The position numbers and the translations under genes were made by a program. The notes beneath the pieces are model-generated. The model did no database searches and had not been told where the DNA came from. It was given only the letters and a program-made list of their open reading frames with translations. A stretch of 64,000 nt of DNA from Zingiber officinale (taxonomy: Eukaryota > Streptophyta > Magnoliopsida > Zingiberales > Zingiberaceae). This document shows, one piece after another, positions 12,531 to 52,130 of this stretch (the first letter of the stretch is position 1; every line of letters starts with the position of its first letter). The DNA lies in contig NC_055996.1 of the NCBI RefSeq assembly GCF_018446385.1, forward strand, positions 126,900,532 through 126,964,531. The letters are read 5' to 3'.

Positions 12531-12531
12531 C

Positions 12532-16726: not shown

Positions 16727-17587
16727 GATCCTATTCAAAAATCATGAAGAAGGTTTGCTGGGGATGTGACTTCTGCGTTGGCTGCTTGTAGACCTCGCTT
16801 CACTCTACAACACAGGAAACGTCAGTAAAGACCCAGGAAAGGAGTCCCCGACGTTGGCCCTTCGACGTTTAAGTCAATCACCAGCAAAATGGAAGAAAGT
16901 GGAGCAATATAATGGTAAGCACAGGTATGAATAGTCAATAACGCATACCTCCGTCGGTGCATGAACTCTCCCTTTATATAGCGTCATAGCAGGAGACGTG
17001 CACACTTCTCAAGACGTGGGCACGTTCTCCAAATTATCCTATGAAAGGACATGTCAGAAAAGTAGCTCTAACACCATACCTTAACGGGGCACGTAAATAT
17101 TTGACAAGACAGTAGAAACTTCTACTGTACGACCCTCCTGTTGACCATGCCTCGTTGTTAGTGGCACTATCTCCCAAAGAGATATCAATGAATATGAGAG
17201 GGCTCCCACTGCTTGACCGAGCGAAGGGCCCGCTCGATTAAGGATCCCTGCTTGGTAGACCTCCGTTGCTTCCATGCGATGACTTGGTTCAGTAAATTAT
17301 TTTGGCCCGACCGGGAGAACGCTCCTGTCGCCTTGACATTCTTCGCTTCGTGATGAGCATATGATGTTCTTGTCACATTGCTCTTGGTTGTACATGCGTC
17401 CTGCTCGAACAAGTCGCTTGCCAATCGGGCACTTCATGTCCGACTGGCAACTGCAGTAGACCTACGTTCGACCCACCTTTGGTGAGCTCGCTGGTTCCCT
17501 GGTATTGACCGTCTTGACTTTGACCTCCACACCATCTACTACCTCTGCCCTTGACCTGCACTAGGTGGGCCCCTTATAACTACATCA
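16727..17587 (-). repeat. 3' LTR of gypsy element A
   Basis: 861 bp, starting TGATCCTATTC and ending CTACATCA. A 'ccctttatatag' TATA region (on the element's strand ctatataaaggg) lies at about 16970. It is followed by 'taagtcttcccctcaag', the purine tract in reverse. Confidence 0.88.
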
Positions 17588-18369
17588 TAAGTCTTCCCCT
17601 CAAGTCTAGTCAAAGGAGACTGCAAGTTTGATTGACTGAACAGGTAGTGTCTTTGGTAGCCTCTTGATCGGGCATTCTCTATTCTCAAGCTTCCAATCGG
17701 ATTATATTATCTTCTTAGTTGTTGTTCGACTTCCTCTTACTACCCTTAGTGTGTAGTTACCGCTTGGATTTTACTCCATAGGACTGGTTTTGAGCCGTTG
17801 CTCGGCTATCATATAGTCAGAGATCCATGCCGATCGGGGTGGTTGGCAGCGACACTTAGCGATTTTTTCACAATTCATTGCTCTCTTGGACGAGTGCCTC
17901 ATAATAGTTGTTGACGCCATCTTGATTTCTTGAAGATTGTGCAAATCTCTCGCCATTATGACTAAGCACGCCGCTCATGCCTTTTAATTAAGCTTCATTA
18001 ATACTTCCCGTCGTTGGCTGCCACACGTCCCACACTTTGCCGCCGCACTCTTGACGTGACAGGCGGATATCCGCTGGTGATGTGACATGCACCTTTTCAA
18101 ATTTCAAGGCCAGATCTAGTCCTTATTTTTTTGTAACCCTTGATCGGACGGCTCGGAACAATCGCTCGCTGGGGTTTATAAGCCGTTATTTACTCGCCGC
18201 CATCTTCATTCTTCCTCGCGCTTTCCATCTCGAGCACATTCGGTGAAGCTTCTTCTCCCCCTCATTTTCGTCGGTGACCTTTCTCAGTAAGATTCTTCGT
18301 TCTTTCCTTCGTTGAATTCGCGCTTAGTTTCTTTCTCAATTTCTTATGGTTGTCTGCTTTCATCTCCTC
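17588..18369 (+). other. Remnant of element A's antisense-ORF promoter and leader
   Basis: This segment lines up with the region upstream of the antisense ORF in C (about 38504-39060) and in B (20173-20925): a 'cacgtccc' and 'gacgtgacaggcgg' block, 'gatcggacggctcgg', 'ggtttataagcc' (TATA-like), then a pyrimidine-rich leader. Around 18370 it joins integrase sequence directly, so the coding part of the antisense ORF and the integrase 3' end have been deleted in A. Confidence 0.65.
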
Positions 18370-19205
18370 GGTGGGGTCGGTGCAGGATATTATGATACTT
18401 TTGACATGATAAGCAAGTGGCCACCGTCCGAGCAACTTCATCTTACAATGTGGGCTAAAAATATTCTGCTAACAGGATCTTTCGGTCCAATGATTTACTG
18501 CACGTGTGACTTCAGCAGGAGCCCTGATGCACTTCTTACAGGATGTATTCAACGTCCTCCAATCCAACACACTTGAGCAACGGCTTTGAGAAAGCTCTTT
18601 TATATAGCTAATCCCCGATCAAAGTGAACCGCTTGGTCCTCTTTTTCAACAAGCGAGCTTCCTCCTCATCGGCTGATGTGGCACTCGATCGAAGGAACTC
18701 TATCAGTGATGTCCTCCAATTGCTTGAGAAGCTTATTCCGTCCATCCTATCGATGTGTGCGACTAGCGAAATCTGTTTGACTAGTTGATTTATCACGATC
18801 GACGATAATGAGCTGGCTCTGGTTATCCGATTAGGGGATCTTCCGTATAACCACTTCTTGGAAGTTTGCCTTCAACTTCTTGAAAGCTTCTGCATATAGC
18901 TTGAGTCGGGAGCTACTTATCTCGAACGTACCCAATAGCTGCTAAGCCGCCAGCTGAGAATTCGAGTAGATGAGGACTCTCATGGCTCCTACATGATGAG
19001 CTGCCTGTAAGTCGGCTATCAAGGCCTCATACTCAGCTTCGTTATTTATAGCCCAATAATCCAGCCACACGGACAACTGCATCCTGTCCTCCCGATGAGA
19101 AATCAAGAGGATGCTGATCCCGAGTCCTTACAGGGTGGAACCATCTACGCAGATCTTCCAATTTACATCTGACTCGGCGTTCTAGACCTCAGTCACAAAA
19201 TCAGT
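18370..19205 (-). pseudogene. Element A integrase N-terminal and RNase H fragment
   Basis: The minus strand is homologous to C's pol around 43450-44300: the integrase zinc-site region near 18380-18480, the 'RRVGRFTLIDDQLY'-like block near 18600-18640, and the RNase H stretch near 18960-19150. Only short open pieces survive (for example 18608-18796). The segment ends at the insertion of B; the matching right-hand piece resumes at 33678. Confidence 0.8.
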
Positions 19206-20172
19206 TGATCCTGTCTGAAAGTTGAAGAGACGGAAAGCTGGGGATGTGACGCTCACGCTGACCTCCTGTGGATTCTGATTAGACCTGCAACACAAACTAT
19301 ATCAGTGCCGAGGCAGGGAAGGGGTCCCCTGCGTTGGCCCTCCGACGCTCAAGTCAGTCACCGGCGATGAAGAATAAGGTGGACCAACAAAAAAACTGTA
19401 GCACAAACAGTGAATATCACATACCTCCATTGATGCTTGGACCCCCCCCCCCCTTTAGAAAGAGCTCCGGTAGCGTGCATGTACGCTTCCTAAGGTGGGC
19501 ACACTTCTCAAAGTTTTTCATAAAAAAAACTTGTCAGTAAAGTGTCCCTGACACAGTACCTTAACGGGCCGAGCATATATCTGAAGTGACAGTGGAAGTT
19601 TCCGTCGTAGGATCTTCTGGCTGTCCACGCCCGATGTCGGTGGCACCAACTTCCAAAAGGATGTTGCTGGATATCAAAGAGAGTGGACTGCTAGGTCGAG
19701 CGGGTTGGCCGCTTAGCCGGTGATTCACCGCTCTGGTTCCCCGTCCTGTCAGCCAGAACCTCGATACTCCTTTGCATGTCTGTTCGACTGAAGTTCCACT
19801 CTACCACTGTTGAGACCTGCTACCAGGCTGAGCGGGGTAGCCACTCGGCCGAAGTTGAACTCTGTCGATGTCAAGCTCAGTTCTATTTGAGCAGGGTAGC
19901 CATTCGGCCGAGGTTCTGTCTGCCAATGCCGAATACTAGTGCCTTACCGAGTGGAGAAGCCGCTCGAGTGGCTTCTACACATTGTCTTCATTAAGCATCA
20001 GTCGTTTGACTTCTCCATGTGTCGAAGGCGGCAGTCGATCGAAGCCTTATTCCCGGTCAGGGCATGCTTCGCCCGATCGGCTGATGTCATCTGCACATTG
20101 ACCGTCTTGACTATGACCTCCTTTGACCTCCACCGTGGCAGCGGGGTGGGGCCCTTCATTATCATCACATCA
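19206..20172 (-). repeat. 3' LTR of gypsy element B
   Basis: 967 bp, starting TGATCCTGTCTG and ending CACATCA, followed by the purine tract in reverse ('cctccccttcaagtctagtc'). It has a run of 13 C near 19443. Confidence 0.88.
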
Positions 20173-20924
20173 CATGCCTCCCCTTCAAGTCTAGTCGAAG
20201 GAGGCTGCAATTCTGACTGGCTGGATAATTGTCTAAGCAGCTTTCCTCCCGATTGACCTTCGGCATTAACTTGGCTTCTGATTGGGATGCGAACGCTCCC
20301 TGTCGGTCGACCTGTCGAAGCTTGTCATTCGACTGTAGGTACGCTCCCTTAATCCGATCAGCGCGACGAAGGTTTAAACTTGTGAAATCTTTTCTTGGGC
20401 TATCTTGGGCGAGCACGAGTTAGGCTTACGTCACTCAGATTTCTGGGAAATCATGCAAATCTCTTCGCATCAAGGCTGAGCACGCCCCCATGCTCTCATT
20501 AAATGTTGACCCATGGCGATGTGCCACGTGTCTTGCTCCCTGTCGCCTCACGCCTAATGTGACAGGTGGATATCTACTGTGATGTGACGTTTGGCGATTC
20601 AAGTTCAACGGTGAGATCTTGGCTTGGGTTTCTGCGACCTAGATCAGACGGCTCCGGTCGGCCGACCCCTAGGCTTATAAACCCGCGTGTGTCGCCACAT
20701 TTGCGCACATGAAACGAGTTCTTCGACGATGCTCCTGTGCTCTGGCGACATCCTTCTTTTTCGCTCCTCCGGCAACCTTTCTAGTAAGCTTTCTCCCCAT
20801 CTCCCTTTATTTTCACATCTTTCGGCGTCTGTTCTTCATCATCCTCGAGTTTTTCGACGTCTGTGTTCCAACGACAATTCCGCCAGTAGGTTTCCTTTGT
20901 ATCTCCACCTTTTTTTGTTTTGTA

Positions 20925-23195
20925 ATGGCAAGTTTCTCGCAGCCTCTCACCGGCATCCCGGGGCCCTAGTACACCTCTACCGAGTCCCGGTTTGACGCCG
21001 ACGATGCTGAGAGTCTGAAAGCCGCTTTTGAGCTTCCACCCGAACACAAAGTTGTTATTCCTTCTCCCTCTGATCGGCCAAATTCTCCGCCATTTGACAG
21101 TATTTCCTTTTTCAGGAACCATTTTACCACAAGTCTGCAATTTCCCATCCACCATTTTTTTCCCTCCCTGTGTAAATATTTCCGAGTCTCACTTCATCAA
21201 CTAGTGTCGAACTCCTTTCAGCTGTTGTGCGGGGTGGTAGTTCTTTTTCACCTGTACGACATTCCACTTACTCCCCGACTCTTTCATTACTTTTATTATC
21301 CCAAATCTTCCAAGTCGGGGGCTTTCCTTTTCCAAGCCCGAGTGGGTTTCGTTTTCTTTGATAAAATATCGACTTTCAACAAACACTAGAAGGAGTACTT
21401 CTTTTTTGTGTACTTTCCCAAGTGGTCGAACTTTCCCACCTCCTGGCAGCTCGACGTGGTGGCTCAGCCTCTATTAAAGAAGTATAAGAGCCGATCGGAC
21501 TACCTCAACGCAGCTTCGATGTTGGCTGGTTAGAAGTATGACATCCATAAGCTGTTGCTGGAGGGTGTCCTTTATATCTTCAGCTTGAGTCCGATCCGCA
21601 CCCGGCTTCCGTTCAGCCTAGGTATGCTATCTCTTTACTCATTCCTTTGATTCTAATTGATTTTTCTTCCTTTTTTTTAGCCAAAGTTATGCTACATGCA
21701 CATTTGGCCGGCAAGGCAAAGCTTGCGAACATCGTGATCAATACGGTTGCTGTAGAAGAATTGGAGAGTCGCGACCTACAGTTAGTCGGCTCCCAAGAAG
21801 AGCCGCAGGACGAGAGCGAAGCGGCTCCCGCCTTGGCAAGTGGTGGAGTGACCGATGGCTCCCAACCTACTTTCGAATGGCAGCCGGTCGTCGAGATTGA
21901 GGGGGCTTCGGGCTCAGCGTCCTCCGCTAAGCCACTAATCAGGCGCAAGAGGCGTCGGGCGGAGCCTTCATCGAGCTCCGCCACTTCGGGGGTGTGGTCC
22001 GCCGAATGGGTCGAGAAGTTGACCCTCGCTCCTATCCAAGAGTCCACCGCTCTCGAGTCGTCAGATCGGACCCCCTCCCTATCCGGTTTGCCTCAAGGAA
22101 CAGTCTGCGCACTGTCGATGGCCTTCCTGCCACCAAAATCGAAGTCCCAAAAGTCAGGGATCCATCTGGCATCTCCATCCAGGCCATCCGGACGCGCTAC
22201 TTCTGCACAATCAGCCCCGAATGGCCAACGCCATATCACGATGATTCTCCACCCGCCGATCAAAGAGTGGTGCGAGTCGGCAGACACTTCATCCCGAGCA
22301 CCAGATCATCATCCAAGGGTCACTCGCCCAAATATGGACAGATGCCCGAGCCCGCACAGTGATGATTCCTCCGGGGGCACTCGCGGACAACCACACCCAG
22401 ATATCTACTGGGGTAACTAGTAAGTGTTAATGTTCTTTTTAATCAATTTCCGCTCGGCGCTTATATTCTCTCTGTTGCTTGCAATACTAGGTGGAGAGCC
22501 TGGTCATGTGCCAAAGATTCACATTTTTGGAGGCGGAAATGAAGAAGATAAAGGCGTCGAGCGACCAATCCTCCGCCGCTCAAGAGCAAACGAACTCCGA
22601 GGTGGCCAAACTGTGGGCCGATTTGGAGAAGAGCAACAAACTGCTCGAGGCTTAACGGGACAAGAGTGCTGAGCAAGCCACTATGTTGGCTCGGCTCAAT
22701 AAGCAGGTCACCACCTTCGACAATAAAATTGAGTAGACCAATGTGAGAAAGAATCGGGCCATCGAAGACCTCGAACTGAAGAATAAGGAGGTCGGAGCCC
22801 TTACCCAAATACTTAAGGAAGTTGAAGATTTTGCTGGTCAGCAAGAGGAAGAGCTGGTCAGCCGAAGAAGCTGCCCTTCGTGGCCAACTTACCGCCAAAG
22901 ATACCGCACTGCCACCGCGAAGGATGAGCTGGAGGCCTCCCGAGCGGCGTTGAAGACTTATCAAGATATCGAGGCCGGCCGGTTTGAGGCGATGAAGAAG
23001 AATTATATTCGCTCGGATGCGTTCAACGATAAAGTTACCAACCGGGCACTCCGCCTATTCGACCTGGCGATCGACGGGACGATCAAACAGCTTAGAGAAG
23101 GTGGATACCTACCTGCGGCTCTGACCAATAGCATCATCAGTTGGGTTAAACTTACGGCATCGCTGCCTGACGATGCCCTAGACTACCTTGATTGA
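20925..23195 (+). pseudogene. Antisense ORF of element B (gypsy-type putative transposase domain), degenerate
   Basis: This ORF runs opposite to gag-pol, between integrase and the 3' LTR. Exon-like blocks are 20925-21621, 21681 to about 22420, and 22491-23195, with splice-like gtatgc...tttttttag and gtaag...actag borders at the same places as in C. Block 1 starts MASFSQPLTGIPGP and meets a TAG at once; later parts still show FQLLCGVVVLFHLYDIPLTP and FYYPKSSKSGAFLFQA. Two more stops follow (after FNKH and MLAG). Block 2 is a low-complexity Ser/Glu/Ala-rich region; block 3 is a coiled coil ending SLPDDALDYLD. The domain resembles Pfam 'putative gypsy type transposon' (PF04195), known in plant gypsy elements. 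Its role is unknown. This copy cannot encode the full protein. Confidence 0.75.
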
Positions 23196-23523
23196 GGCCA
23201 AGAGTCCCTGTAAAATTTCTATAAAGTTTTTGAATTCTTAATGGATGCTTGTCCGTTCGAACAGGCTTTATTTCCTTGTACGTTTTTTCGACTTCCATTT
23301 TTCTTTGAGCATTGCAGGAACTCGTGCCCTCGTGAATCTAATCTTCCACGATTAGTCTATCCCGCCGACCGATTCCTTTTGTATTCAGAGTTCCATCATG
23401 ATTCTACAAACTTTTGATTGGGTCTAGGAGTATCATGACGAATAGTGTCAAACGACCACTATATTTCGAAGACTTCGAGCTCGACTAATGATGTTCTGCC
23501 AAACAAATTTGATGACCATCTAT

Positions 23524-24716
23524 GTAACGACCCGACCCTTTGGCCTCTTGGGTGGCCCTTATGTCGTCGGCCCATTTGACGACCTCTCATATCGTCGACC
23601 GACGACCCTTTGGCCGTGCCGTTACTCTCTAGGACTTTCCACCCCTGGCAGTGGATTTTTGCCTTCCCCAGGATTCGAACTCTAAACCTCCAGGCTTTAG
23701 TACTAGAGTTTATGAATCCTGGTAACCAAGTGAGATGAGATGATCTCACTTGGTTACCAGGATTCATAAACTCTAGTACTTAAGCCTGGAGGTTTAGAGT
23801 TCGAATCCCAGGGGAGGCAAAAAATCCACTGTCAGGGGTGGAAAATCCTAGTGAGTAACGGTACGGCCAAAGGGTCGTCGGTCGACGACATGAGAGGTCG
23901 CCAAATGGGCCGACGACATAAGGGCCGCCAGTTGGGCCGCCACAAGGGTCGCCAAATGGGCCGACAACATAAGGGCCGACGGTCGACGACATGAGAGGTC
24001 GCCAAATGGGCCGCCAAATGGGCCAAGAGGGTCGGGTCGTTATAATAAAAACTCTACTACTTAGCCTGGAGGTCTAGAGTTCGAATCCTGGGGAAGGCAA
24101 AAATCCACTGCCAGGGGTGGAAAGTCCTAGTGAGTAACGGCACGGCCAAGGGTCGTCGGTCGACGACATGAGAGGTCGTCAAATGGGCCGACGACATAAG
24201 GGCCGATGGTCGACGACCCGAGGGTACCAAATGGGCCGCCAAATGGGCTAAGAGGGCCGGGTCGTTACAATAAAAAGGCGCCTTTTATTGTAACGACCCG
24301 ACCCTTTGGCCTCTTGGGCGGCCCTTGTGGCAGCCCAACTGGCGGCCCTTGTGGCAGCCCAACTGGCAGCCCTTATGTCGTCGGCCAATTTGGATTTTTG
24401 CCTCCCCCGGGATTCGAACTCTAAACCTCCAAGCTTAAGTATTAGAGTTTATGAATCCTGGTAACCAAGTGAGATGATTCTCACTTGGTTAGCAGGATTC
24501 ATAAACTCTAATACTTAAGCCTGGAGGTTTAGAGTTCGAATCCCAGGGGAGGTAAAAATCCACTGCCAGGGGTGGAAAGTCCTAGTGAGTAACGACACGG
24601 CCAAAGGGTCGTCGGTCGACGACATGAGAGGTCGTCAAATGGGCCGACGACATAAGGGCCGCCAGTTGGGCTGCCACAAGGGCCGCCCAAGAGGCCAAAG
24701 GGTCGGGTCGTTACAA
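23524..24716. mobile_element. Compound fold-back element with TGTAACGACCC termini
   Basis: At least three inverted segments share the terminus TGTAACGACCCGACCC. 23524-24041 is a long hairpin centred near 23735 (arms of over 200 bp meeting at 'gagatgagatgatctc'). A half unit covers 24050-24280. A second hairpin at 24287-24716 is centred near 24475. The arms contain 'tttagagttcgaatccc', which matches a tRNA-type B box (GTTCGAATCC), and many 'gggccgacgacataagggccg' repeats. No protein is encoded. The flanks share only 'atct' and show insertion into B's integrase region. It could be a fold-back MITE or inverted SINE-like copies that inserted into each other. Confidence 0.75.
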
Positions 24717-26478
24717 TCTGCTTGGTTATTTTTACAAGCGGCTCGACTTCCACCCACTTCGAGAAGTAATCGACCGCGATGAGCAGAAATTTTCGATGAC
24801 CGGTCGCCATGGGGAATGACCCAACGATATTCATGCCCCATTGGTCGAATAGGTAAGATACTGTGGATGCCTTCATTTCCTCAGTCGGTCGGTGTGGAAG
24901 GTTGTGATACTTCTAGCAAGACAAGCAGGTGGCCACCGTCCGAGCGGCATCTTCTTGGAGGGTCGGCCAAAAATATCCGACCAGGAGTATCTTTCGAGCT
25001 AACGAACGGTCGCTCGGATGGCCTCCGCAAGAGCCTTGATGCACCTCTAACAGAATGTACTCGACATCTTCCGATCCGACGCTTTTGAGTAGGGGCCTGG
25101 AGAAGGCTCTCTTATAAAGCTAGTCCCCAATCAAGGTGAACCGTCTGACCCTCTTCTTAAACAGGTGAGCTTCTTCCGGATCGACAAGTGTTACTCCCGA
25201 ACGTAGAAACTCTGTCAGAGTTGTCCTCCAGTCATTCGAGAAGGTTATTCCTTCCATTCGGTCGATATGTGCCACAAGCGAGACTTGTTCGATCGGCTGC
25301 CCTATGACGATCGACGACATCGAACTGGCTAACTTTTACCAACTTATCTGTCGCCTGGTTCTCCGATCGGGGGATCTTTTGTATAATGACCTCCTGAAAG
25401 TTGGTATTCAGCTTCTCGAAAGCCTCCGCATAGAGCCTGAGTCGAGCATTACTTATATCGAATGTCCTGGATAGCTGTTGAGCGGCCAACTGAGAGTCTG
25501 AGTGGATGAGGACTTTAACGGCTCCCACATGCTGGATTGCTTGTAGGCCAGCTATCAATGCCTCATACTCTGCTCCTTTATTACTGGCCCTGTAATCTAG
25601 CCGAACGGAGAGCTGCATCCGGTCTTCCCAAGGTGAGATAAGCAATATGTCGATTCCGCTGCCTTGCCGAGTGAACGAGCCATCAACATATATCTTCCAT
25701 GTTGCCTCTGGCTCGACACTCTAGACTTCTATGACAAAATCCGCTAAGGCCTAAGCTTTGATTGTCGCTCGGGGTTGATATTGAATGTCGAATTCGCTTA
25801 ACTCGGTCGTCCATTTGATTAGCCTTCATGATGCTTTGGGGTTGAGAAGTACTCGTCCCAAGGCTCTGTTAGTTAGCATAATAATTGAGTGCACTAGGAA
25901 GTATGGACGAAGACTCCGAGCGGCGAGAATCAAAGCATAAACTAATTTTTCGAGACCGGTGTCACGAGACTCTGCATCCTTCAATATATGGCTTAAAAAA
26001 TATACAGGTTGCTGATCTTGGCCGTTCTGCCTAACCAGAGCCGATCTAATGTATGTTCGTTGGATGACAGATAAATCTAAAGTGGCTCATCAACAACTGG
26101 TTTGGCCAATACAGGCAAGCAGTTTAGATATTCCTTGAGCTCTTCTAATGCCCAATCACACTCGGTGTCCCATTAGAATTTCGTGACTCGGCGAAGCACT
26201 TTGAAGAATGGCAGACTCCAATCGGATGACTTGGATATGAATCTAGATAACGTCGTCATCCGATCGGTCAGCCGTTGAGCTTCCTTCAAGTTTCGAGGCG
26301 GCGACATGTCTTGCAATACTTTGACTTTGCTTGGATTGGCTTCAATGCCCCGCTCGATAACAATGTGACCCAGGAAGTGACCACTCTTCATGCCGAACAG
26401 ACACTTGTCGGGATTTAGCTTTATCCCATAGGTTCTCAGTGTTTGACAAGTCTCATTGATATCTGTGCATAGGTCAGC
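24717..26478 (-). pseudogene. Element B integrase, RNase H and RT 3' part
   Basis: Minus-strand homology to C's pol is continuous: integrase core (FDQWGMNIVGSF, VDYFSKWVEVEPL near 24730-24860), the zinc-site region near 24900, RFTLIGD near 25125, RNase H (LDYRASNKGAEYEALIAGL near 25550), and RT thumb/connection (GHIVIERGIEANPSKVKVL near 26330). Stops and small indels break it into short frames. It stops at the insertion of D within RT, which resumes at 29903. Confidence 0.85.
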
Positions 26479-27428
26479 TGTTGGAACCCCAAGGTTGTTT
26501 TGGTGTGATCAACAAGTTAAGTTAGGTCCTGCGTTGTTTCTAACCTTGTGTCTAAGTGTGCAGGAGCTTAGGAGCACAGGTACTCGAGCGGAAGACGCAG
26601 CTAGCGAGAAGGACGGCACGCTGTGCGTCCGAGGGACGAGGTGCTACGGAAGAGTACACCGGCGGACGAGAAGGAAGTGCGGTGGTTCCAAGGCGTGCGA
26701 GCGGAAGATTGCTCGGGGAGCAGAGAGGCGCTAGCGAAGGTTGGCACGGGTGCGGCAGGGCGAAGTCTGCGGATGAGTCCGAGGGACGAGAAGCCGGAGG
26801 GAAGCCTGCTCGAGAAGACCGGAAGATGGGTTCGGGTGAGCCCTATTCCGGATGGCCGAGATCACTCAAGCAAGCGGAGCCGAAGCAGAAGACCCGGACC
26901 GAGGCAAACTGAACTGGAGCAAAGGGCCCGGACTGAAAAAGTCAACTCTATTGACTTTCTTAGTTTGGGCACCCAGACTTGGATATTATCCAGATCGTGG
27001 TCAAACATGATCGATGAGAGGAGGGATAAAATTTTATCCCCTCCCAGGCATCTGGAACCCTTCCAAGCGCCTCGACCAAGGCTATAAATATAGTCTTGGT
27101 CCAAGAAGCTCAATAAGACAAGCAATTCTGATCACAATACTTGTATGCTTTCATTGTTAGTTTAGCTTCTTATTTTTCTGTGCTTGAATGCTGTACGAGG
27201 TTTCTCCGCCCGAAGGAGTTTTATTGAGCTTAATCTTCCTTGGATTAACAACCACATCGGTTGTAACCAAGTAAATCTTTTGTGCCTCACTTTTCTTTAT
27301 GCTTTTAATTTATCTGCTTAACTTAATTATGCAAGTGTTAGCCTAAAGAGTTCGAGGAGGGTTTGTTTTCTTTTCTGTGTTAGCAGGATATCCAACAACC
27401 CCCTCCTAGCCGGCCCAACGGTCCTACA
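26479..27428 (+). repeat. 5' LTR of element D
   Basis: 950 bp. It has a TATA-like ctataaatatag near 27082 and a 'cgaaggagttttattgagc' block shared with the partner. It ends 'cggtcctaca'. Confidence 0.88.
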
Positions 27429-27536
27429 AGTGATATCGAGAAGCTTTCAATCAACCTAAGAACTAGCAACCAACAATGGTGAGCTAGCGACTACCCACCT
27501 GCATTCGAGGGGGAGTTTTCCATCTGGAAACAAAAC

Positions 27537-28562: not shown

Positions 28563-29029
28563 TATGATTTAAGAAGTTTTGATAAATTAAAATAGAAATT
28601 TAAATCCTGTTGATAAAGAACATTAGAACAACAATTAAATAAATGCAAAGAATTTTTTTTTCGTTATTAATTTTACTAAATTTTCTTAGAATGATTTTTT
28701 TTGAAAATTATTGCAAAATTTTCAAAGTTCTCGAAATTGCTCTAAAAGGATCTTAATGACTTAGAAATTCTTTTGTTTAAAGGTATTTTTTTTCTAAGTC
28801 TTTAACCCTTAGATTGTTTTTCTTGAAACCCCATTTTTATTGTGATCAAAGGGGGAGAAGAGAAAGTATAAGTCTAGGGGGAGGTAGAGAAAATTGAACT
28901 TTTCTGTTAAATTCTGTTAAAATTTAATTTTATCTATCATGTTGCATGTTATTGCAATAAACTGTTTAATTTCATATTTATTTTTGACCCTAGCTTAACT
29001 TGGGTTGATCACACCAAAAAGAGGGAGAT
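28563..29029 (+). other. Element D 3' non-coding region and purine tract
   Basis: AT-rich sequence after gag with two purine-rich G tracts ('caaagggggagaagagaaag' near 28850 and the terminal AAAAAGAGGGAGAT at 29016-29029). No pol sequence is present, unlike full-length copia elements. Confidence 0.7.
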
Positions 29030-29897: not shown

Positions 29898-29902
29898 TCA
29901 GC

Positions 29903-33677: not shown

Positions 33678-33682
33678 TTAGC

Positions 33683-38503: not shown

Positions 38504-39148
38504 CTTGCCTCCCCTTCAAGTCTAGTCGAAGGAGGCGAATAGTCCGACTGACTGGACTAAGAATCCGGCCGAGCGGTTCCTACGTGCTTGTATCATCCGC
38601 TCGGCCAACCATAGAGGTAGCCTAAGCGAATCAACAATGGTCTTCACCGGATCTCCTCGTATTCTGCGCCAATTTTCGACATTAAGGTTGAGCACGCTTT
38701 CATTAAATGCTCAGAATGATTCAATGCCACGTGGAGCACTGTCATCGGTGTACGGCGGCGGTAGCATGATATTTTGACGTGATCGAAGCAATTCGAAATG
38801 GACGGCTAGATGCATGCTTTGATTCCCGTGACCTGGATCCGACGGTTGAGGCCGCCCGGTCTTCACCCTATAAATTCTTCGTTTCCTTCTCTCCCTCACT
38901 CGCCTCCGCGACTTCTGCTACTGCCCTCTGCGCTTTGGAGCTCCGGCAATCTCGTTTCTGCCCTCCGACGCTCTCCGGCGCCTTTCCTTAATCCCTCTCC
39001 CTGTAGTAAGGTTTTATATCTTTCCTCCCTCTTTTCCGGTGTCTCATTCGCATTTCTCTCCCTAGCTCCAATCTTTGAAACTTCTTTTCTTCGTCGGTTG
39101 TTTTCCTCTGGCCTTTCCGCTCCTTTTTTTATTTCTTCCGTCCGGATC

Positions 39149-41294: not shown

Positions 41295-41635
41295 TTCTTG
41301 TAATTTTGCCGCTCGGCTGAATATGAACCTTTTTGTACTTAGGCCACTCGGCCCAAGGTTTTAATTTCAATGAAATGCTTTCCTTTCATGCACTCTATCT
41401 TCTTGCACTTTGTCCCTTTGCTAATATGTGTGTTACCCGCTCGCCTATTATCCTACCTTCGGCATATGCCAAGCCCTTCCGATCGGACAACTATCATTCT
41501 GTGTTGCTATCAAGAGTCGCTCGCTATAGACCGACCAGAACCTTTATGCCTTGAGTCCGAGCGGAACTTTGAATCGGTCGAACGATATCGGCGGAGAATA
41601 CGGATAATCGCAGTTTCGACGATATTCCGCTCGGA

Positions 41636-41978
41636 TTATTTATAGACGCCGGCCCGTCTCTCGATCTTTAACGACGAAGCTCGTCGGCGCGGATATTTAT
41701 AGACGCCGGCCCGTCTCTCGATCTTTAACGACGGAGCTCGTCGGCGCGGATATTTATAGTCGGTCGGCGCGGCTCTCGATCTTTAACGACGGAGCTCGTC
41801 GGCGTGGATATTTATAGCCGGTCGGCGCGGCTCTCGATCTTTAACGACGGAACTCGTCGGCGCGGATATTTATAGCCTGTCGGCGCGGCTCTCGATCTTT
41901 AACGACGGAACTCGTCGGTGCGGATATTTATAGCCGGTCGGCGCGGCTCTCGATCTTTAACGACGGAGCTCGTCGGGC
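41636..41978. repeat. 58-bp tandem array in element C
   Basis: About six head-to-tail copies of a 58-bp unit containing 'atatttatag', 'cggcgcggctctcgatc' and 'tttaacgacggagctcg'. The first two copies have a slightly different second segment ('acgccggcccgtctc'). Confidence 0.9.
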
Positions 41979-42050
41979 TTTTAAGCCTAATTTTGGACAA
42001 CGTTTACTGGGCCGAACGGCACAGGGTCTTCGGAATTGAGCCTTTGGCTC

Positions 42051-42465
42051 GTACAATATACTTCCGGCTGAGCAGCTCGGGGCCTTCGTTGTCGAGCGCT
42101 TGGCTCAGATAATTTACCTCCGGCCGAGCGGCACGGGGCCTTCAGATACTATACCTCCGGCTGAGCAGCTCGGGGCCTTCGTTGTCGAGCGCTTAGCTCA
42201 GATAATTTACCTCCGGCCGAGCGGCACGGGGCCTTCAGATACTATACCTCCGGCTGAGTAGCTCGGGGCCTTCGTTGTCGAGCGCTTGGCTCAGATAATT
42301 TACCTCCGGCCGAGCGGCACGGGGCCTTCAGATACTATATCTCCGGCTGAGCAGCTCGGGGCCTTCGTTGTCGAGCGCTTGGCTCAGATAATTTACCTCC
42401 GGTCGAGCGGCATGGGGCCTTCAGATACTATACCTCCGGCTGAGCAGCTCGGGGCCTTCGTTTTC
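42051..42465. repeat. 93-bp tandem array in element C
   Basis: About four and a half copies of a 93-bp unit with two related halves ('cctccggctgagcagctcgg' and 'cctccggccgagcggcacgg'), each followed by 'ggccttc'. Copies differ by single bases only. The open frame at 42286-42672 arises from this repeat. Confidence 0.9.
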
Positions 42466-42599
42466 TCGTCGACGATGCCTTATATTTGTTCTCTTGATTT
42501 TTCATTTCTGCATTTCAAGTATTCAGTTGACAAAAGTGCACAGGATGATTTACATTCGCACACCTTTCACCCGCCCGGTAAGGCTGGAGGTGGTTCGCG

Positions 42600-45500
42600 C
42601 TCCACGGCCTATCTAACTACCGACCGTCTTCATCCTCCAGATAATACGCGCCCGAGCGGAGTTTTTCGATGACTTTGAAGGGACTTGCCCACGGAGCTTC
42701 AAGCTTGCCGACGTCGCCGACCGGCTTGACTTTCTTCCAGACCAGATCGCCGACCTGGAATGATCTGGGAATGACGCGTCGGTTGTAGTTTTGCTTCATC
42801 CGTTGCCGGTACGCCATCAGCCGAACGGATGGCTTGGCTCGCTCCTCGTCAACCAAATCCAGCTCCATGTTCCTCCGCTCGGCGTTGCCTTCATCGTAAC
42901 TTAGAACCCGGACGGACTCGACGCCGACTTCAACTGGAATAACCGCTTCGCCGCCGTACACCAGATGGAAAGGTGTGACGCCAGTTCCTTCCTTAGGAGT
43001 CGTTCGGATGACCCATAAAACGCCCGGCACTTCATCTACCCAACTTCCTCCTAAATGATTGAGCCGAGGGCGCAGAATACGAAGAATTTCCCGATTGACT
43101 ACTTCGGCTTGACCGTTGCTTTGGGGATAGGCTACAGATGTGAAGTGATGTTCAATGCCGAAGCTTTGGCACCAATCTTCGAGAATTTTGCCTGTGAATT
43201 GCCGTCCGTTGTCGGAAATCAGTCGACGAGGGATGCCGAACCGACATATGATGTGCCGCCATATGAATTTTTTTAACCATCTGTTCGGTGATCCTGGCTA
43301 GCGGCTCGGTTTCCACCCACTTGGAAAAATAATCAACCGCCACTAGCAAAAATTTCCGCTGCCCGGTCGCCATCGTGAACGGACCAACGATATCCATTCC
43401 CCATTGGTCGAACGGACATGAAACTGTTGATGCCTTCATTTCCTCTGCCGGTCGGTGGTAGGAATTATGATACTTCTGGCACGACAGGCATGTTGATACG
43501 GTCCGAGCGGCGTCTGCTTGTAGGGTTGGCCAAAAGTATCCAGCTAGCAAGATCTTCTTGGCCAATGATCGTCCGCCCGGATGACCTCCGCATGATCCTT
43601 GATGTACTTCTTGGAGAATGTAAGCTGAGTCTTCCGAGCTTACACATTTCAACAGCGGACGTGAGAATGCTTTTTTGTAAAGCTGATCGTCGATGAGTGT
43701 GAACCGACCGACTCTCCTTCTTAGTAGTTGGGCCTCATTTCGGTCGGCCGATGTAGCTCCCGAGCGGAGGAACTCTATGATGGGTGTCCTCCAGTCGCTT
43801 GGAAAAGTGAGGCCTTCCATCCGGTCGACGTGCGCCGCCAGCAGTACTTTTTCAATTGGTTGCTGAATGGCGACTGGCGTTATTGAGCTTGCGAGTTTGG
43901 CTAACTCATCAGCTGCTTGGTTTTCTGCTCTGGGTATCTTCTGGACGATAACTTCTCTGAAATTGGCTTTAAGTTTCCCAAATGCATCAGCATAGAGCTT
44001 GATCCGGGCGCTGTTAATTTCAAATGCACCAGAGAGTTGCTGCGCGGCCAATTGCGAATCAGAATGAAGCGTTACCCGACCGGCGCCAACATGCTGAGCT
44101 GCCTGCAATCCGGCTATGAGGGCCTCATACTCTGATTCATTGTTGGTAGCTTTGTAATCCAGCCGGACGGATAGGTGCATCTTTTCTTCTTGAGGTGAGA
44201 GCAGCAATATTCCAATCCCACTTCCGAGCCGAGTGGAAGACCCATCCACATATATTCTCCACATAGCTTCCGGCTCTGGTCTTTGCACTTCGGTCACAAA
44301 ATCAGCCAAGGATTGCGCTTTGATCGCCAAGCGGGGCTGGTACTGGATGTCAAATTCACTTAGTTCTGTCGTCCACTTGATGAGCCGTCCGGACGCTTCT
44401 GGATTCAACAATACTCTTCCTAGTGGACTATTCGTCCGGACAATGATGGTATGAGCCAAGAAATATGGTCGAATGCGCCGAGCGGCAAGAACCAAAGCAA
44501 AGGCCAACTTCTCGAGCCCAGTGTAACGAGATTCGGCATCTTTTAAAATGTGGCTCAGAAAATACACCGGCTGCTCCTCGCCGCTGGACCTTACAAGTGC
44601 CGAGCCTACAGCATGCTCGGTTGAAGACAGATAAATATAAAGTGACTCACCCCCGATCGGCTTGGCTAGTATAGGCAGAGAATTAAGATATGTCTTCAAT
44701 TCTTCGAATGCTCGGTCGCATTCCTCGTCCCAGTGAAATTTAGTGGCCTTGCGCAAAATTTTGAAGAAAGGGAGGCTCCGGTCGGCAGTTTTGGAGATGA
44801 ATCGGGACAATGCGGTTATCCGACCGGTCAAACGCTGCACTTCCCTTGTATTTCTCGGAGGCGGCATGTCTTGGAGAGCTCGCACCTTGCTGGGATTTGC
44901 TTCAATTCCCCGCTCGGTCACTATGTACCCCAAGAAACGCCCTCCTTTTGCTCCGAACAGGCACTTCTGGGGATTTAGCTTGGCTCCATATTTGCGTAGC
45001 GTTCGGAAGGTTTCTTCCATGTCCTTGAAGAGATCGGCCGCTCGGGCGGATTTGATAAGAATGTCGTCCACATAGACTTCCAGATTCCGCCCGATCTGCT
45101 CCCTGAATACTTTGTTCATCAAGCGTTGATAGGTGGTCCCGGCATTCTTCAATCCGAACGGCATCACATTATAGCAATAAGTGTCGTCGGCCGTCACGAA
45201 GCTGACTTTTTCTTGATCTTCACGGGCGAGCGGCACTTGATGATAGTCTTGGTAGGCGTCGAGCATACAAATTAATTCGCAGCCGACCGTAGAGTCCACC
45301 AGCTGATCTATCCGGGGCAAAGGATAAAAGTCCTTAGGGCATGCTTTGTTCAAGTCCCGGAAATCAATGCAAACTCTCCACTTGCCGCCCGGCTTAGAGA
45401 CTAATACTACGTTAGCCAGCCAGCTCGGGAACTGTACTTCTCGTATATGGCCTGCCTCCAGAAGTTTCTCGACTTCCGCCCGGATGATGGCATTCTGCTC

Positions 45501-45977
45501 GGCACTGAAATCCCTTTTTCTCTGCTTCACTGGCCGAGCGTCCGGTCGGACATGTAACTCGTGCTGCGCTATGCTCGGCGAAATTCCGGGCAGCTCGTGT
45601 GTCGACCAGACGAAGACATCATGATTTCGCCGGAGGCATCGGATCAGCTCCTCCTTCTGCTTCTCCTCCAGATCAGAGGCAATAAAAGTCGTGGCCTCCG
45701 ATCGGGTCGGATGAATCTGCACTTCCTCTTTTTCTTCATAAATTAAAGAGGGTGGCTTTTCAGTGATGGCATTTACCTCGATTCGAGGCGCCTTCCGAGC
45801 GGAGTTGGATTCTGCTCGGACCATCTCGATGTAGCATCGCCGAGCTGCTAGCTGATCTCCCCCTACTTCTCCCACTTTGTCCTCCACGGGGAACTTGATC
45901 TTCTGGTGGAAGGTTGAGATGACCGCTCGAAATTCGCTGAGCGCCGGTCGTCCCAAAATGACGTTGTAGGACGAGGG
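42600..45977 (-). pseudogene. Element C reverse transcriptase, RNase H and integrase
   Basis: The main ORF (45956-43152, 934 codons) contains the linker VYEEKEEVQI-type region, RT (WRVCIDFRDLNKACPKDFYP, CYNVMPFGLKNAGTTYQRLM, YVDDILIKS), the RT thumb (GYIVTERGIEANPSKVRAL), RNase H (WRIYVDGSSTRLGSGIGILL, NNESEYEALIAGL) and integrase (zinc-site CLSCQKYHNSYHRPAEE, core WGMDIVGPFTMATGQRKFLL, VDYFSKWVETEPL). Within the integrase core a frame change occurs at a run of seven T (43268-43274). The remaining integrase, with PGVLWVIRTTPKEGTGVTPF, GGEAVIPVEVG and FQVGDLVWKKVKP, reads in another frame to about 42600. Otherwise all catalytic motifs are present. Confidence 0.92.
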
Positions 45978-47720
45978 CTAGTCGACCACCACGAAATTTA
46001 TTGTCCTGGTCCTCCTGAGCGGCTCCTCTCCCAGCGAGGTAGCCAGCCGGATCTGTCCGACCGGCTGAACTTCGTTACCCGTAAACCCGTAGAGCGGGGT
46101 TGTCATGGGCAGCAACTCGGCTCGATCAATTTGCAGCTGATCAAACGCCTTCTTGAATATGATGTTGACCGAACTCCCTGTGTCAACAAATATGCGATGA
46201 ACAGTGTAATTTGCTATTACCGCTTTAATGAGCAGAGCGTCGTCGTGGGGCACTTCAACTCCTTCTAAGTCCCCGGGCCCGAAAGTGATTTCCGGTCCAC
46301 TTGCCCGCTCTTGGCTGCAACCGACTGCGTGGATCTGGAGCTGCCGGACGCCCGCCTTTCTGGCTCGGTTGGAGTCTCCTCCTGTCGGCCCACCAGCAAT
46401 AACGTTGATCTCGCCCCGGGAAGTATTGCTCCTATTTTCCTCTTCCCGAGTGGACGGTCGGGACCGTTCTCTGGACGCTCGGCGATTCTCCTGTCTTGGA
46501 GATCGGTGCCGATCGGGCGTCTGCTGATGTCGCCTCTCGGTGCGGGTCCGGTCGGCTTCATGGATCCTTTGTCTCCTGTCGATGGAAGGAGATCGTCGTT
46601 CGGCATTCCTGGGAACGGGATTAGCCACGAAGGGAAGACTTCGACAATCCCTCGTGTTGTGCGTATCCGTCCGGTGGAAGGAGCAGAACATAGGGGTCCA
46701 TCTCTTCCTTGGCTTGGGCCGAGCGGCAGCTACCTCTTGTACGTGTGATCTGGCGTGGGGGGATCGGATTGCTTCGGCCCTCGGTCCTCTGGGCGGCTGA
46801 TGAGCGGCGTGCTGTTTCCGTTCGGCATGAGTAGGTGCCCGCTCGATTGGAGTTTCCTTTTTCCGGGCGGCTTGCGCTTCTTCCACGTTGATGTATTCGT
46901 TGGCCCGGTGTAGCATGTGATCATAATCTCGGGGCGACTTTCGAATGAGCGACCGGAAGAAGTCCCCATCCACTAGGCCTTGTGTGAAGGCATTCATCAT
47001 GGTCTCCGATGTGGCCGTTGGAATATCCATCGCCACTTTGTTGAATCACTGGATGTAAGCTCGAAGCGATTCCCGGGCTTCTTGCTTGATGGCGAACAGA
47101 CTAACACTGGTTTTTTGATATCGCCGACTGCTTGCAAAGTGGTGGAGGAAGGCCGTTCGGAAGTCTTTGAAGCTGGTGATAGATCCGTCCGGCAACCTCC
47201 GAAACCACCGTTGAGCCGATCCCGAGAGAGTAGTAAGAAAAACTCGGCATTTTACTCCATCTGTGTATTGATGGAGCGTAGCTGTGTTATCAAACTTACC
47301 CAGATGATCATCCGGGTCTGTTGTTCCATTGTACTCGCCGATCGTCGGAGGCACGTAGTGCTTGGGCAGAGGGTCTTGTACAATAGCCTCCGAAAATTGG
47401 CGATTGATCCGTTCGGGAGATGAGTCCGCTCGGGGGGCTTTCCCCTTTCTGTCATCTCGCCTAGGCATCTCGTCTGAAGAAGATCCTCTATCTTTTCGAG
47501 CTGGTACGGCTTCAGGGGTGCGAAATAAGGCCCGGTGGAATGCGACGGTGGCTGGAGGTGCTTCCGCTCGGCCAACAGACGCTGACGTTGCTTGTTGCTC
47601 CGGCCGTTCGACTGCTGCTTTCTGTTTTTGCTCCACAAGTTTGGCGGCCCTTATCTCGACCAGAGCGTCGAGTTCTTCTGTCGAAAGCGCCACCGTGTGT
47701 TGTCGTCCAGCCTCGTCCAT
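45978..47720 (-). pseudogene. Element C gag and protease, with two in-frame stops
   Basis: The frame opens with ATG at 47720, 25 bp from the primer-binding region, reading MDEAGRQHTVALSTEELDAL. The capsid-like part (VPPTIGEYNGTTDPDDHLGK, SGSAQRWFRRLPDGSITSF, SLFAIKQEARESLRAYIQ) ends at a TGA at 47046-47048; the same frame continues directly, so this looks like a single nonsense change. A zinc-like CSFHRTDTHNTRDC follows near 46660-46700, then a basic region and the protease with VDTGSSVNIIFKKAFDQ near 46180. A TAG at 45978-45980 interrupts the protease-RT linker, after which the frame continues in RT. Gag and protease otherwise appear complete. Confidence 0.9.
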
Positions 47721-47744
47721 TGTTCCCGTTCGGATGCAGGTGCG

Positions 47745-47764
47745 TTCCCACAGACGGCGCCAAA
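47745..47764 (-). other. Primer-binding region of element C
   Basis: The minus strand reads TTTGGCGCCGTCTGTGGGAA just inside the 5' LTR. The same core is present in A (36871-36891) and B (32706-32721), each with small changes. The tRNA used was not determined here. Confidence 0.8.
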
Positions 47765-47765
47765 T

Positions 47766-48608
47766 TGATCCTGTCCGAATGCTAAATCAATGGACGCTGG
47801 GCACGGAGCGCTCTTCGACTGTTGACGTGGCTCTTCAACTGCTGGAACGAAGCTCCGACGAACCTACACAGAAGTCGAGCCGGGAAGGGGGTTCCCGGCG
47901 GTGACCCTCCGACGCTCAAGTCAGGTAAGCAACGATGAAAAAGGTGGCTCCCAAAATCTCAGAATGCGTACCTCCGGCGAAGTCTGAGGCTCTTTATATA
48001 GAGTTGTGAAGGGTTAGGGCACGCATACCGAGGTGCATATGTGTCCTCTGTCCTTTCCTCGGTATGCGGTTGTCAGAAAGCCCACCTGACCCATACCGCT
48101 ATAGTCAAATCATGTCCTCGATGGGACAGCAGAATCCCCTGTCACAAGATTTGGAGCATGGCCTACACGTGAAACATACCTGCTGTCATAAAAAGACCTC
48201 CCTTGTCCTTTTCCCCTTTGCTCCAGATCTAGCGTCCAGGCGGACAACTCCCTCAACATCCGGCCGGACATATGCGGTGGTTTACTTGGGGAGATTCTCC
48301 ATCACATGCTTTATGGGGACTATTAGCAGTGTTACCTTATGGCTTTGGCCGAGCGTGGGGTCCGCTCGGCCCACGACCTTTTCCCCTGAGCGCCGGAACT
48401 CTGCTTTCGACAGGGCGCCTTTAACCATCAGCTGTATATTGTCCGGTCGGCAAGCCGATCGGACCCATCCCTCTCCGGGCGTTCGATTCCATCGGCCGGT
48501 CGAACGTCCGGTCGGACCCTGCCCTCTCCGGACGGACGACTACCACTATGGCTTCCACGTGGCGTTGACTTCCCATGGCGAGGCCCCCCTGCTCTTACTA
48601 CCGGATCA
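47766..48608 (-). repeat. 5' LTR of gypsy element C
   Basis: 843 bp, nearly identical to 37674-38503. It carries an extra 12-13 bp ('cggtcgaacgtc' region near 48500). Confidence 0.93.
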
Positions 48609-48962
48609 CTTATCATTTTTGGAAATTTGACGAGAGTTAAGCAGCGGAATAAGAAAACAAACACACAAAGACGCCAAGTATTTACTTGGTTCGGAGTCTA
48701 GGGTGACTCCTACTCCAAGGCCCACGCTTGTTGAGCGTTTACTTTGGGCAACAACTATAATAACACAAACGAGTACAATTGAATATTATAGTTAAATGTA
48801 CTAGAAATTATACTGACACTAAGAAATCGTAAATTTGAAGCTCCGAGTTGTCGGGGTGTTGCTACAGCACTTTTGGAACGTCTCTTGAGCAGCACACGGA
48901 AGAAGGATCGCTTGGAATGTGTTTTATTTAAAGTGCTGGTCGAGATCTCCTTATAAAGCCTG

Positions 48963-49150
48963 CTGAGGGTGCCCTCAACCTCCTTGAGGGTGCCTCCAAT
49001 TGTCGAGTCAGCCGCGCGTGGATAAGCTGAGACTTCTTCGTCGCTCATCCTGTTGAAGGCGCCTCCATGCTCCTTGAGGGTGCCTTCAAGGATGTCCGAG
49101 GCGCCTCAAGTCTCCATGAGGGTGCCTCCAAACTCCATGAGGGCGCCTCG
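48963..49150. repeat. Short GC-rich repeats in the SIRE-like solo LTR
   Basis: Units of the type 'ctccttgagggtgcctcc' and 'ctccatgagggcgcctcg' recur about seven times, likely arisen by slippage inside the LTR U3 region. Confidence 0.7.
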
Positions 49151-49435
49151 GGTACTGTTCATCCGATGCACACTTTATTTTTAGTCCCTGCAAAACATGT
49201 TAGTCTACAAAATACCAACATATCTTGCAAAACAAAGTTAACACATAATAAACATAATAATATAAATATTTTGACAGTCTCCGGATTGTCCGGTTCTAAC
49301 TTCGAATTTTCGATCGGAAACCCTAGGTTGAACCGACGCCTACTGTTCCTTCCGCGGGGAACGCGTCCTCACCTACTCCACTTAGGAGAGCATACCTGAT
49401 GTCAGTCCGGTCCTCCAGACTGACTGGACTTTCTG

Positions 49436-49722
49436 CCTAGGGTTACCTTCCCCTAGGATTTTCCACCACCTAGGGTTACCACCCCCTAGAACCTAAGATT
49501 ACCGTCCCTTAACGTTTTCCACTACCTAGAGTTACCACCCCCTAGACCTAAGGTTATCGCCCCTTAGGGTTTTCCACCACCTAGGGTTACCACCCCCTAG
49601 GGTTTTCCGCCACCTAGGGTTACCACCCCCTAGGATTTAAGGTTACCGTCCCTTAGGGGCTTCCACCATCTAGGGTTACCACCCCCTCGGACCTAAGATT
49701 GCCGCCCCTTAGGGTTTTTCAC
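49436..49722. repeat. CCACCTAGGGTTACC tandem repeats in the solo LTR
   Basis: Repeats alternate 'ccacctagggttaccacccc' with 'acctaaggttaccgtccc' and 'ttagggttttcc' in about five irregular copies. The AGGGTT core resembles the plant telomere repeat, but spacing and sequence show it is an LTR-internal array. Confidence 0.75.
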
Positions 49723-49852
49723 CTGCCTAACCGCAGTTAGGACTTTCCTGCAAATTCATTCACACATATCAGATGACAAAATACCTTAACTTTGAATCCC
49801 TTTGCCATTATCAAAACTTGGGTTCGATAGTCGGATGCTTCCCGCACCAACA

Positions 49853-49947
49853 CAGAAAACGTCAATGCCGAGCCAGGGAAGAGGTCCCCAGCATTGGCTC
49901 TTCGACGCTCAAGTCAATTACTGAAAAAATAACAGGAAGTGGAACAA
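49853..49947 (-). repeat. 5' LTR of gypsy element A, second piece
   Basis: It continues the LTR from 36982 (TSD CAGAA) with 'aacgtcaatgccgagcc', matching 16814-16910 of the 3' LTR. It ends at TSD AACAA (49943-49947) where a solo LTR is inserted. Confidence 0.85.
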
Positions 49948-51450
49948 TGATAACGAGCAATTTTATATTATTTTGGCTCTTGTATTTGATATTTTTATCC
50001 TCTCATTTGCTTAATTCCTTATTAATATCATGTTTTACGAGTAGAAATATATTTTGGGCTTAATCATAAATTTTCCTAAATTTTGGCATTATTTCATGCT
50101 TTTATAGGGAATTAAAGAAGAGCCATGGATTATGATCAAATCGGATCGAATTTGGCTTAATTCGGAGGTCAAGTGGAGGAAAAACCAATATGAACCATTG
50201 ATCTAGATTTAGAGAGATTTTGTTCTTTCATTTAGATCTAAGTCATCCAACCCTTGATTCAGAACTAAAATAATATGGACCATTGGATTAAAACAAGAAG
50301 GCAAACTTAACTAATATGATCTGGACCACTCATCTCTTCATCCTTAAGATCAAATGGATAACCCTTATCTAAAAATAGACGATCAAATTTTAGATCCCTC
50401 TTCTTGGATAGCTAGGATGAAGAGGGGCTCCTCTCTTCTTTTCGCACAGATGGACAAGGAGGAGGGGGGATCACACGCACCTTCTGGGACGTATGGAGAC
50501 AAGGTCGCAACTCCTCTCTTCTCCATCTCTTCCTCACGGCCGGTGGTCCACTTCTACCTCACCACCGCTGGCCCGTCATCCCTAACCCCCTTCCCTTTCC
50601 TACTTCCACCTCCGCTCGTTCATCGCCGCCCTTCACGATTTTCTACCCCAACGCCGCTGACAACAGCATCCAAGCCTCCGCTGGAGTTCATCCACTTCAG
50701 ATCTGGACAGAACAAGCTCCAACTTCTAATCAGATCTAATCTTCTTCAAGCTTCAACAGAAGACACCTTCAGCCGATCAATTCTTCAAGCATCCAACAAC
50801 AACTTCTTTGTCACCAAGATTGGTCTATTTCTTTGATTGTTGATTGCTTCTTTGGTTTTTATGTTTTGAATGAGTTCTTGATTGTTGATTGTAATTAAAT
50901 TTAATTTCCCATATTCTGGATTCTCTAGATTAGGCTTAAGTTGAATGTTGCTCACAAGTTGTTCGATGTAATACCCCAAACACTTTTGATAGCTTTATTG
51001 ATGCATTTTAGTTCCTTAATTTATTTCAATGCTTTGTTTGGTTAAATGTTAGTGATAGTTGTCCTTTGATTGAATGCAATTAGGATAGATTAGATTAGGT
51101 TTCTTTAATGCTCTAGATTTCATTCAATTTTTACTTTATGTTACTTTAATTTCCTTGCAATCATAGTTTAAGTTAGACTAGATTTTCATACTTGCATTGC
51201 TCTTTTGTTCATTAGGTTTAGTTTCATACTTGTTTTGTTATTTCATATCGTAGTTTAGAACTCAAACCCAACCTCTCCATTTTCATGTTAAAAATTCAAA
51301 ACAATAATCAATCCTGAAGATATCATCCTATCATTACATTCCTTGTGAGACGACCCGAGTCATCCCTATACTACTTTAGTATTGAGAGGCTTCAGTAACT
51401 TTAATTATAATTTGATAAGCTCCCGTAGTACGACACTCGAGCCTGTATCA
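49948..51450 (+). mobile_element. Solo LTR (1503 bp, gypsy-like) inside element A's 5' LTR
   Basis: It starts TGATAACGAGCAATTTT and ends CGAGCCTGTATCA, with perfect TSD AACAA at 49943-49947 and 51451-51455. A 'ccttgtgagacgacccgag' motif near 51345 resembles the U5 region of many plant gypsy LTRs and suggests plus orientation. No internal sequence or second LTR was seen, so it is a solo LTR formed by LTR-LTR recombination. The 160-codon frame at 50354-50836 has no recognised domain and is not called as a gene. Confidence 0.87.
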
Positions 51451-51455
51451 AACAA

Positions 51456-52130
51456 CAGTAAGCACATGCGTAAATAGTAAATAATGCGTACCTTCACCTG
51501 TGCATAGACCCCTATTTAAACAGCGCCCTAGTGGGCAATGTGCACGCTCCTCAATGCGTGGGAACGTTCTCTAAATTATCTTATGAAAGGATATGCCAGA
51601 AAAATAACTCTGACATCATACCTTAACGGGGCACGCAAATCCCTAACAAGGCAGTAGAAGCTTCCGCCATACCATTCGCCTATTGACTATATCTTGTTGT
51701 CAGCGGCACTATTTCCCAAAGGGATATCAATGGATATGAGAGGGGTCCCACTGTTTGATCGAGCGAAGGGGCCGCTCGGTTAGGGATTCTTGCTTGGTAA
51801 ACCCTCCGCTGCTCTCATGTAATGACTTGGTTTGGTAGATTATTTTCGCCCGACCGGGAGAGCGCTCCGGTCGCCTTGACATTCTTCACTTCATGATGAG
51901 CATTTAATGTTCTTGTCGTAGTGCTCTTAGCTATACAGGCGTCCTACTCGAACAAGTTGCTTGCCAATCGGACACTTCATGTCCGACCAGCAACTGCAAT
52001 AGACCTCCATTCGACCCACCTTTGGTGAGCTCGCTGGTTCCATGGTGTTGATTACTTTGACTTTGACCTCCGCGCCATCTGCTAGCTCTGCCCTTGACCC
52101 GCACTAAGTGGGCCCCTTATCACCGCATCA
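51456..52130 (-). repeat. 5' LTR of gypsy element A, third piece
   Basis: Matches 16916-17587 of the 3' LTR ('taccttcacctgtgcatagacccc', 'cgcccgaccgggagagcgctc', ending 'accgcatca'). TSD GCCAA follows. Confidence 0.88.

Follow-up and report, generated by a model that had tools for sequence, protein, structure and literature searches.

Structure of the Nest

We analyzed a stretch of 64,000 nucleotides of the Zingiber officinale genome (the window; C11:126900532-126964531), in which long terminal repeat (LTR) retrotransposons lie inserted one within another in a fragmentary copia copy, here called H. Element ends were re-read directly from the sequence letters, and relatives were sought in a genome of 3.09 Gb (211 contigs) with 40 candidates scored per search, genome counts being lower bounds. 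The nest consists of the following parts.

14950-53461, minus strand: H, a partial Ty1/copia-like pol copy with an SH3_retrovirus domain, the outermost host, split by A into 14950-16725 and 52131-53461; its extent is taken from relatives
16726-52130, minus strand: A, a Ty3/gypsy-type LTR element with target-site duplication (TSD) GCCAA; 3' LTR at 16726-17587
36892-36982, 49857-49947 and 51456-52130, minus strand: the three pieces of A's 5' LTR
19206-33677, minus strand: B, of Ty3/gypsy type with LTRs at about 19206-20172 and 32725-33677, inserted in A's RNase H region
23523-24715, no strand assigned: fold-back element in B's integrase core, with inverted arms and TGTAACGACCCGACCC termini, flanked by ATCTA and ATCTG
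26479-29897, plus strand: D, a non-autonomous copia-like element in B's reverse transcriptase (RT), with a gag-like open reading frame (ORF) only; LTRs at 26479-27428 and 29030-29897; TSD TCAGC
26883-27195, plus strand: foreign tract in D's 5' LTR, including a TATA-like segment without counterpart in D's 3' LTR
36983-37616, minus strand: left part of a composite, derived from a terminal-repeat retrotransposon in miniature (TRIM)
37617-49851, minus strand: X, a copia-type LTR (TGTTGG...CCAACA) split by C; TSD CAGAA, common with the TRIM piece
37674-48608, minus strand: C, a young Ty3/gypsy-type element with an antisense ORF; LTRs at 37674-38508 and 47766-48608; TSD CTTAT
49948-51450, plus strand: insert in A's 5' LTR, probably a solo LTR from an Athila-like element; TSD AACAA

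The initial annotation of the window had described this nest much as we find it, with A starting one base too far to the right (16727) and with seven components; we name eight (H plus seven inserts), or nine when the composite, which as a whole covers 36983-49851 including the later insert C, is split into TRIM and X. Five of the seven 5-bp duplications are exact and stand at element termini: GCCAA around A (16721-16725 / 52131-52135), TCAGC around D (26474-26478 / 29898-29902), CAGAA around the composite (36978-36982 / 49852-49856), CTTAT around C (37669-37673 / 48609-48613), and AACAA around the solo LTR (49943-49947 / 51451-51455), whose own ends read TGATA...TATCA. By simple arithmetic each would arise by chance about once in 1000, so the set is far above chance. 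A, B, and C all have LTRs of the form TG...CA. The flanks of B are not identical (TCAGT at 19201-19205, TTAGC at 33678-33682); since the target reads TCAGC in two of three A-family relatives (TCATC in the third) and in the pol of C, the pair fits a decayed TCAGC with one C>T change per copy, as had been proposed. For the fold-back element, flanked by ATCTA and ATCTG, the homologous site in C is uninterrupted and reads ATCTG. With the inserts removed, A's 5' LTR measures 857 bp and its 3' LTR 862 bp, so that the near-equality first noted (about 855 vs. 861 bp) stands with revised figures. To call the nest fully unpacked by TSDs was too strong: the composite cannot be so resolved because the inner junction between TRIM and X has no TSD, and A carries an internal deletion at 18372/18373.

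The pol ORF of C contains RVT_1 (RT, 187-346), RNase H-type domains (409-689), and integrase (779-901, with rve below the cut-off). C also has gag and, on the plus strand at 38810-39886, an antisense ORF with PF04195; between its pol and antisense ORFs we observed tandem arrays at 41632-41976 (58-bp unit, 6.0 copies) and 42057-42462 (93-bp unit, 4.4 copies). The pieces of A and B align to C pol in the order RT, RNase H, integrase, so all three elements show the Ty3/gypsy arrangement. An antisense ORF between pol and the 3' LTR is found in C and in B (homologous stretches within 20922-23192), and for A only on C12, the homologous contig; we take the three to belong to the Tat-type gypsy lineage. 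On C11, A lacks the antisense-ORF region and the integrase C-terminus, a 3' LTR-side stretch being joined at 18372/18373 to integrase residue 836. The C12 copy of A continues into the ORF, which makes this joint an internal deletion and not an insertion. Mapping onto C pol placed B in A's RNase H region (around residues 552-567, with an RNase H-type domain on either side) and confirmed the reported positions of D in B's RT (around 306-309) and of the fold-back element in B's integrase core (around 894). In H, PF25597 (SH3_retrovirus), a domain of copia-type pol, matches at 52128-52820 on the minus strand (E 3.2e-17). The gag-like ORF of D matches PF14223, a copia gag family, at 21.2 bits, under the cut-off of 27.

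Order of Insertion

The order first proposed, H, then A, then B and the inserts in A's LTR, then C and D, is supported by the nesting itself, by uninterrupted sites in relatives, and by the presence of A on both homologues. A search of the same genome for uninterrupted sites, which the initial annotation had suggested, found them for A, B, and D. The two flanks of A in H were searched separately (left 15800-16725, right 52136-53600). Twenty-two listed left-flank matches reach the A junction base, namely the window, C12 (which holds A), and 20 others, and in 16 of these 20 H-family copies the right flank starts at the very next base. The B site is uninterrupted in all three A-family copies fetched, and the D site in all three B-family copies fetched, where it reads TCAGT, TTAGT, and TCAAC (each three chosen from 40 scored for a match that extends to the insertion point or ends a few bases short of it).

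The published phased ginger assembly comprises 11 chromosome pairs (PMC8342452). In our data C11 and C12 behave as homologues: C12 has the BEL-type gene of 54601-55380 at 98% identity, and the listed flank stretches align at 90-99%. C12 carries A at the identical site, between identical copies of GCCAA, so that H, and then A, predate the divergence of the haplotypes. Kimura two-parameter (K2P) distances between the two copies of A are 0.169 for the 3' LTR, 0.170 for part of the 5' LTR, and 0.145-0.171 for three internal stretches. A's own 5' and 3' LTRs lie 0.220 (standard error, se, 0.019) apart on C11, or 0.182 when restricted to the portion that C12 shares in the comparison, and 0.236 apart on C12. 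The non-orthologous cross-pairs measure 0.179 and 0.217, and the LTR distances alone therefore resolve little of A's history. The LTRs of B differ by 0.131 (se 0.013), less than A does between haplotypes, so B may postdate the haplotype split. C12 also has inserts of its own, a TRIM in A at the equivalent of 17704-17708 and an X-like LTR in H. A D-like element lies there as well (C12:140916928-140921096), in H about 36 bp right of A's end, with LTRs 99.5% identical and TSD GGATG.

Divergence between the homologues jumps at A's left edge (16726) and drops again at about 53.8 kb. The counts are 67 transitions and 23 transversions in 1773 sites for H left of A, 415 and 92 in 3628 for the A block, 60 and 15 in 706 for H right of A, and 145 and 46 in 3545 for a nearby copia element (9044-12598). 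Candidate causes of the jump are a block boundary, ectopic conversion, and mutation rate. Methylation alone was tried as an explanation of the high divergence in A and looks doubtful: each of the three C contexts shows more transitions, yet transversions too are about double those of a neighbouring element (0.0254 vs. 0.0130). Pointing the other way, the piece 51657-52130 of A, which lay outside the transversion count, has 2 transversions against 65 transitions in 463 sites.

LTR Divergence and the Mosaic LTRs of D

Where LTR pairs can be compared, hosts had been expected to be older than guests. This holds for A (0.220) over B (0.131) and C (0.0146, se 0.004). The TRIM LTR piece gives 0.160 (se 0.045, 99 bp). 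No LTR pair was found around H in self-comparison, nor in the six relative pairs compared, and for want of one H is not datable by this means. D departs from the expectation, and here, formally, the outcome named beforehand as refuting the order (guest LTRs clearly more diverged than those of the host) is what we see; we set it aside because D's LTRs are mosaic.

At their two ends (97 aligned bases at the start and 229 at the finish) the LTRs of D differ at 5 of 326 sites (K2P 0.0155), and between these ends they align poorly. A copy on C6 matches the 5' LTR tract 26883-27195 at 98.7% identity across 313 bases; D's own 3' LTR reaches 52.6% across 215 aligned bases. An element on C18 shares 97.1% identity with the internal region of D, and in the stretch of the tract the LTRs of that element resemble the 3' LTR of D. 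The match lists for the two middle LTR segments (40 scored of 8371 and 40 of 6601) have nothing in common except D. D therefore inserted recently, and the tract in its 5' LTR belongs to another subfamily, which invalidates a date taken from the whole LTRs. The tract would have arrived by template switching or gene conversion, the exact TSDs of D arguing against a crossover between two insertions. The 3' LTR has changes of its own, since in a repeat-rich stretch around 26579-26620 it is the 5' LTR that stands nearer to the C18 element. We further observed that D's 3' LTR (29030-29897) is without about 80 bp, including a TATA-like segment, present in the C18 relative, and that the 5' LTR has its TATA-like segment inside the foreign tract.

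The Composite and the Probable Solo LTR

The TRIM piece is laid out as a 20-bp repeat of the LTR start, an LTR, an internal region, a truncated second LTR, and about 55 bp of inverted LTR. Of the 40 TRIM copies scored, all but that in the window stay collinear only as far as about 37571. Many of the scored copies have terminal repeats of about 200 bp, and one on C12 measures about 680 bp with a 5-bp TSD. TRIMs are small elements with short LTRs, a primer-binding site (PBS), a polypurine tract, and no coding capacity, and the genome copies fit this description in their repeats and length; the window copy is truncated and presumably non-coding. The TRIM piece has a PBS-like reverse complement before 37472. 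X is LTR-like with many genome copies (40 scored of 19114), and one of the two X left ends inspected is preceded by a PBS-like string (reverse complement TTGATATCAAAGC). Judging by its sequence, 49948-51450 is probably a solo LTR left by an Athila-like element: two relatives were inspected, of which the copy on C1 continues into TGGCGTCGTTGCCGGGGA, presumably an Athila-type PBS, and that on C15 does not.

Two histories of the composite are about as likely as each other. In one, which we put forward tentatively, the composite (minus the later C) would have entered A's LTR as one chimeric cDNA in which snap-back DNA connects a TRIM to the LTR of another copia family. CAGAA stands on the outer ends only, and the bases before X at the inner junction (ACTAT) do not match it. 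Template-switch complexes of Triticeae (PMC1950507) likewise hold two elements within one 5-bp TSD and are read there as single chimeric cDNA integrations; those have three LTRs with similar outer ones, whereas here a TRIM is joined to an LTR of another family through inverted filler, and the outer ends are unlike, one of TRIM type and one of X type. This lack of similar outer LTRs favors instead a stepwise history, for which we see a real possibility, if somewhat short of an even chance: X, or its full element, inserted first at CAGAA, a TRIM then entered at or next to the end of X, and DNA was afterwards deleted, with inverted filler, so that the end of the TRIM's second LTR was lost together with a second TSD copy, if there was one. 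Such breakage and repair would leave what is seen, a truncated TRIM piece with about 55 bp of inverted LTR behind it. Stepwise insertion and deletion would nevertheless need a deletion endpoint exactly at X's first base, and ACTAT, which adjoins X at the junction, differs from the TSD on the other side of X. That the composite is itself a mobile unit was considered and rejected: searching with 126 bp that bridge the TRIM-X junction revealed no second locus spanning it among 40 scored of 3865 candidates.

Surroundings of the Nest

The nest is flanked by genes for a POT-family transporter (13458-14810), a POX protein (54601-55380), presumably a BEL-type homeodomain, and a pentatricopeptide repeat (PPR) protein (61592-62977). 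A separate LTR element at 789-5569 has LTRs 98.6% identical (K2P 0.0138) and TSD CAAAC, and its site on C12 is uninterrupted. Rfam and tRNA scans of the window gave no match, nor did a plasmid search with the TRIM as query.

Discussion

We regard the locus, with high confidence, as an ordinary plant nest of LTR retrotransposons that grew by successive integrase-mediated insertions, most of them leaving a 5-bp duplication. In this model the fragmentary copia copy H would have received the gypsy element A before the haplotypes diverged; A would later have received B in its pol and, in its 5' LTR, the TRIM/X-LTR composite and an Athila-like element that is now a solo LTR; B would have taken up the fold-back element and, recently, D, and the X LTR would recently have taken up C.

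Several observations weigh against this model. The distance between A's 3' LTR on C11 and its 5' LTR on C12 (0.179, se 0.023) is barely larger than the orthologous 0.169-0.170. Four of the 20 H copies (C8:47.0 Mb, C16:43.96 Mb, C10:69.19 Mb, C123) have flanks that do not abut or a right match that is not listed. C12 is silent on B, the composite, C, D, and the solo LTR: their sites are missing from the A copy there, which goes directly from the equivalent of 36625 to that of 51657 and has a pol that ends before the B site; we accordingly rejected C12 as a presence/absence test of the guests, absence there being uninformative. The guest junctions are read from assembled sequence, and some could be assembly chimeras, which we consider very unlikely: the insertion ends carry TSDs, exact or with one to two changes, at element termini, and both A junctions recur on C12. 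The whole-LTR distance of D (0.182, se 0.017) exceeds that of its host B (0.131, se 0.013), and were this D's true age, D would be older than B and the order of the nest wrong at that point. We find this exceedingly improbable, as D sits between exact copies of TCAGC inside B's RT at a site uninterrupted in the three B-family copies fetched, with nearly identical LTR ends, an internal region close to that of a relative, and a tract that matches another locus.

The nesting of LTR elements within LTR elements is as described for plants (PMC6911290, PMC7251063), with no difference in kind. In PMC7251063 about one fourth of nested elements are reported to have higher LTR divergence than their host, so that D's excess is a known kind of exception, although here it comes from another subfamily's tract. 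That study holds conversion to be more frequent between the LTRs of a single element than between elements. Similarly, Onsen of Arabidopsis, whose transcripts are co-packaged, yields LTRs built from two family members, and LTR divergence can misdate insertion (PMC5668417). That case was observed experimentally, while ours is deduced from one copy, with a 313-bp tract in one of D's two LTRs. If the chimeric origin of the composite is true, the composite and D's TATA-bearing tract would represent two independent switches between unlike templates in one nest.

Nests of this type are well known and typical of plant genome biology. The present one is a clean worked example: the order given by nesting can be compared with LTR dating, the dating goes wrong for one guest, and the cause of this can be identified. 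The phased homologue gives an outside time mark for A. The main lesson is that D seems older than its host only since one of its ends carries the DNA of another element.

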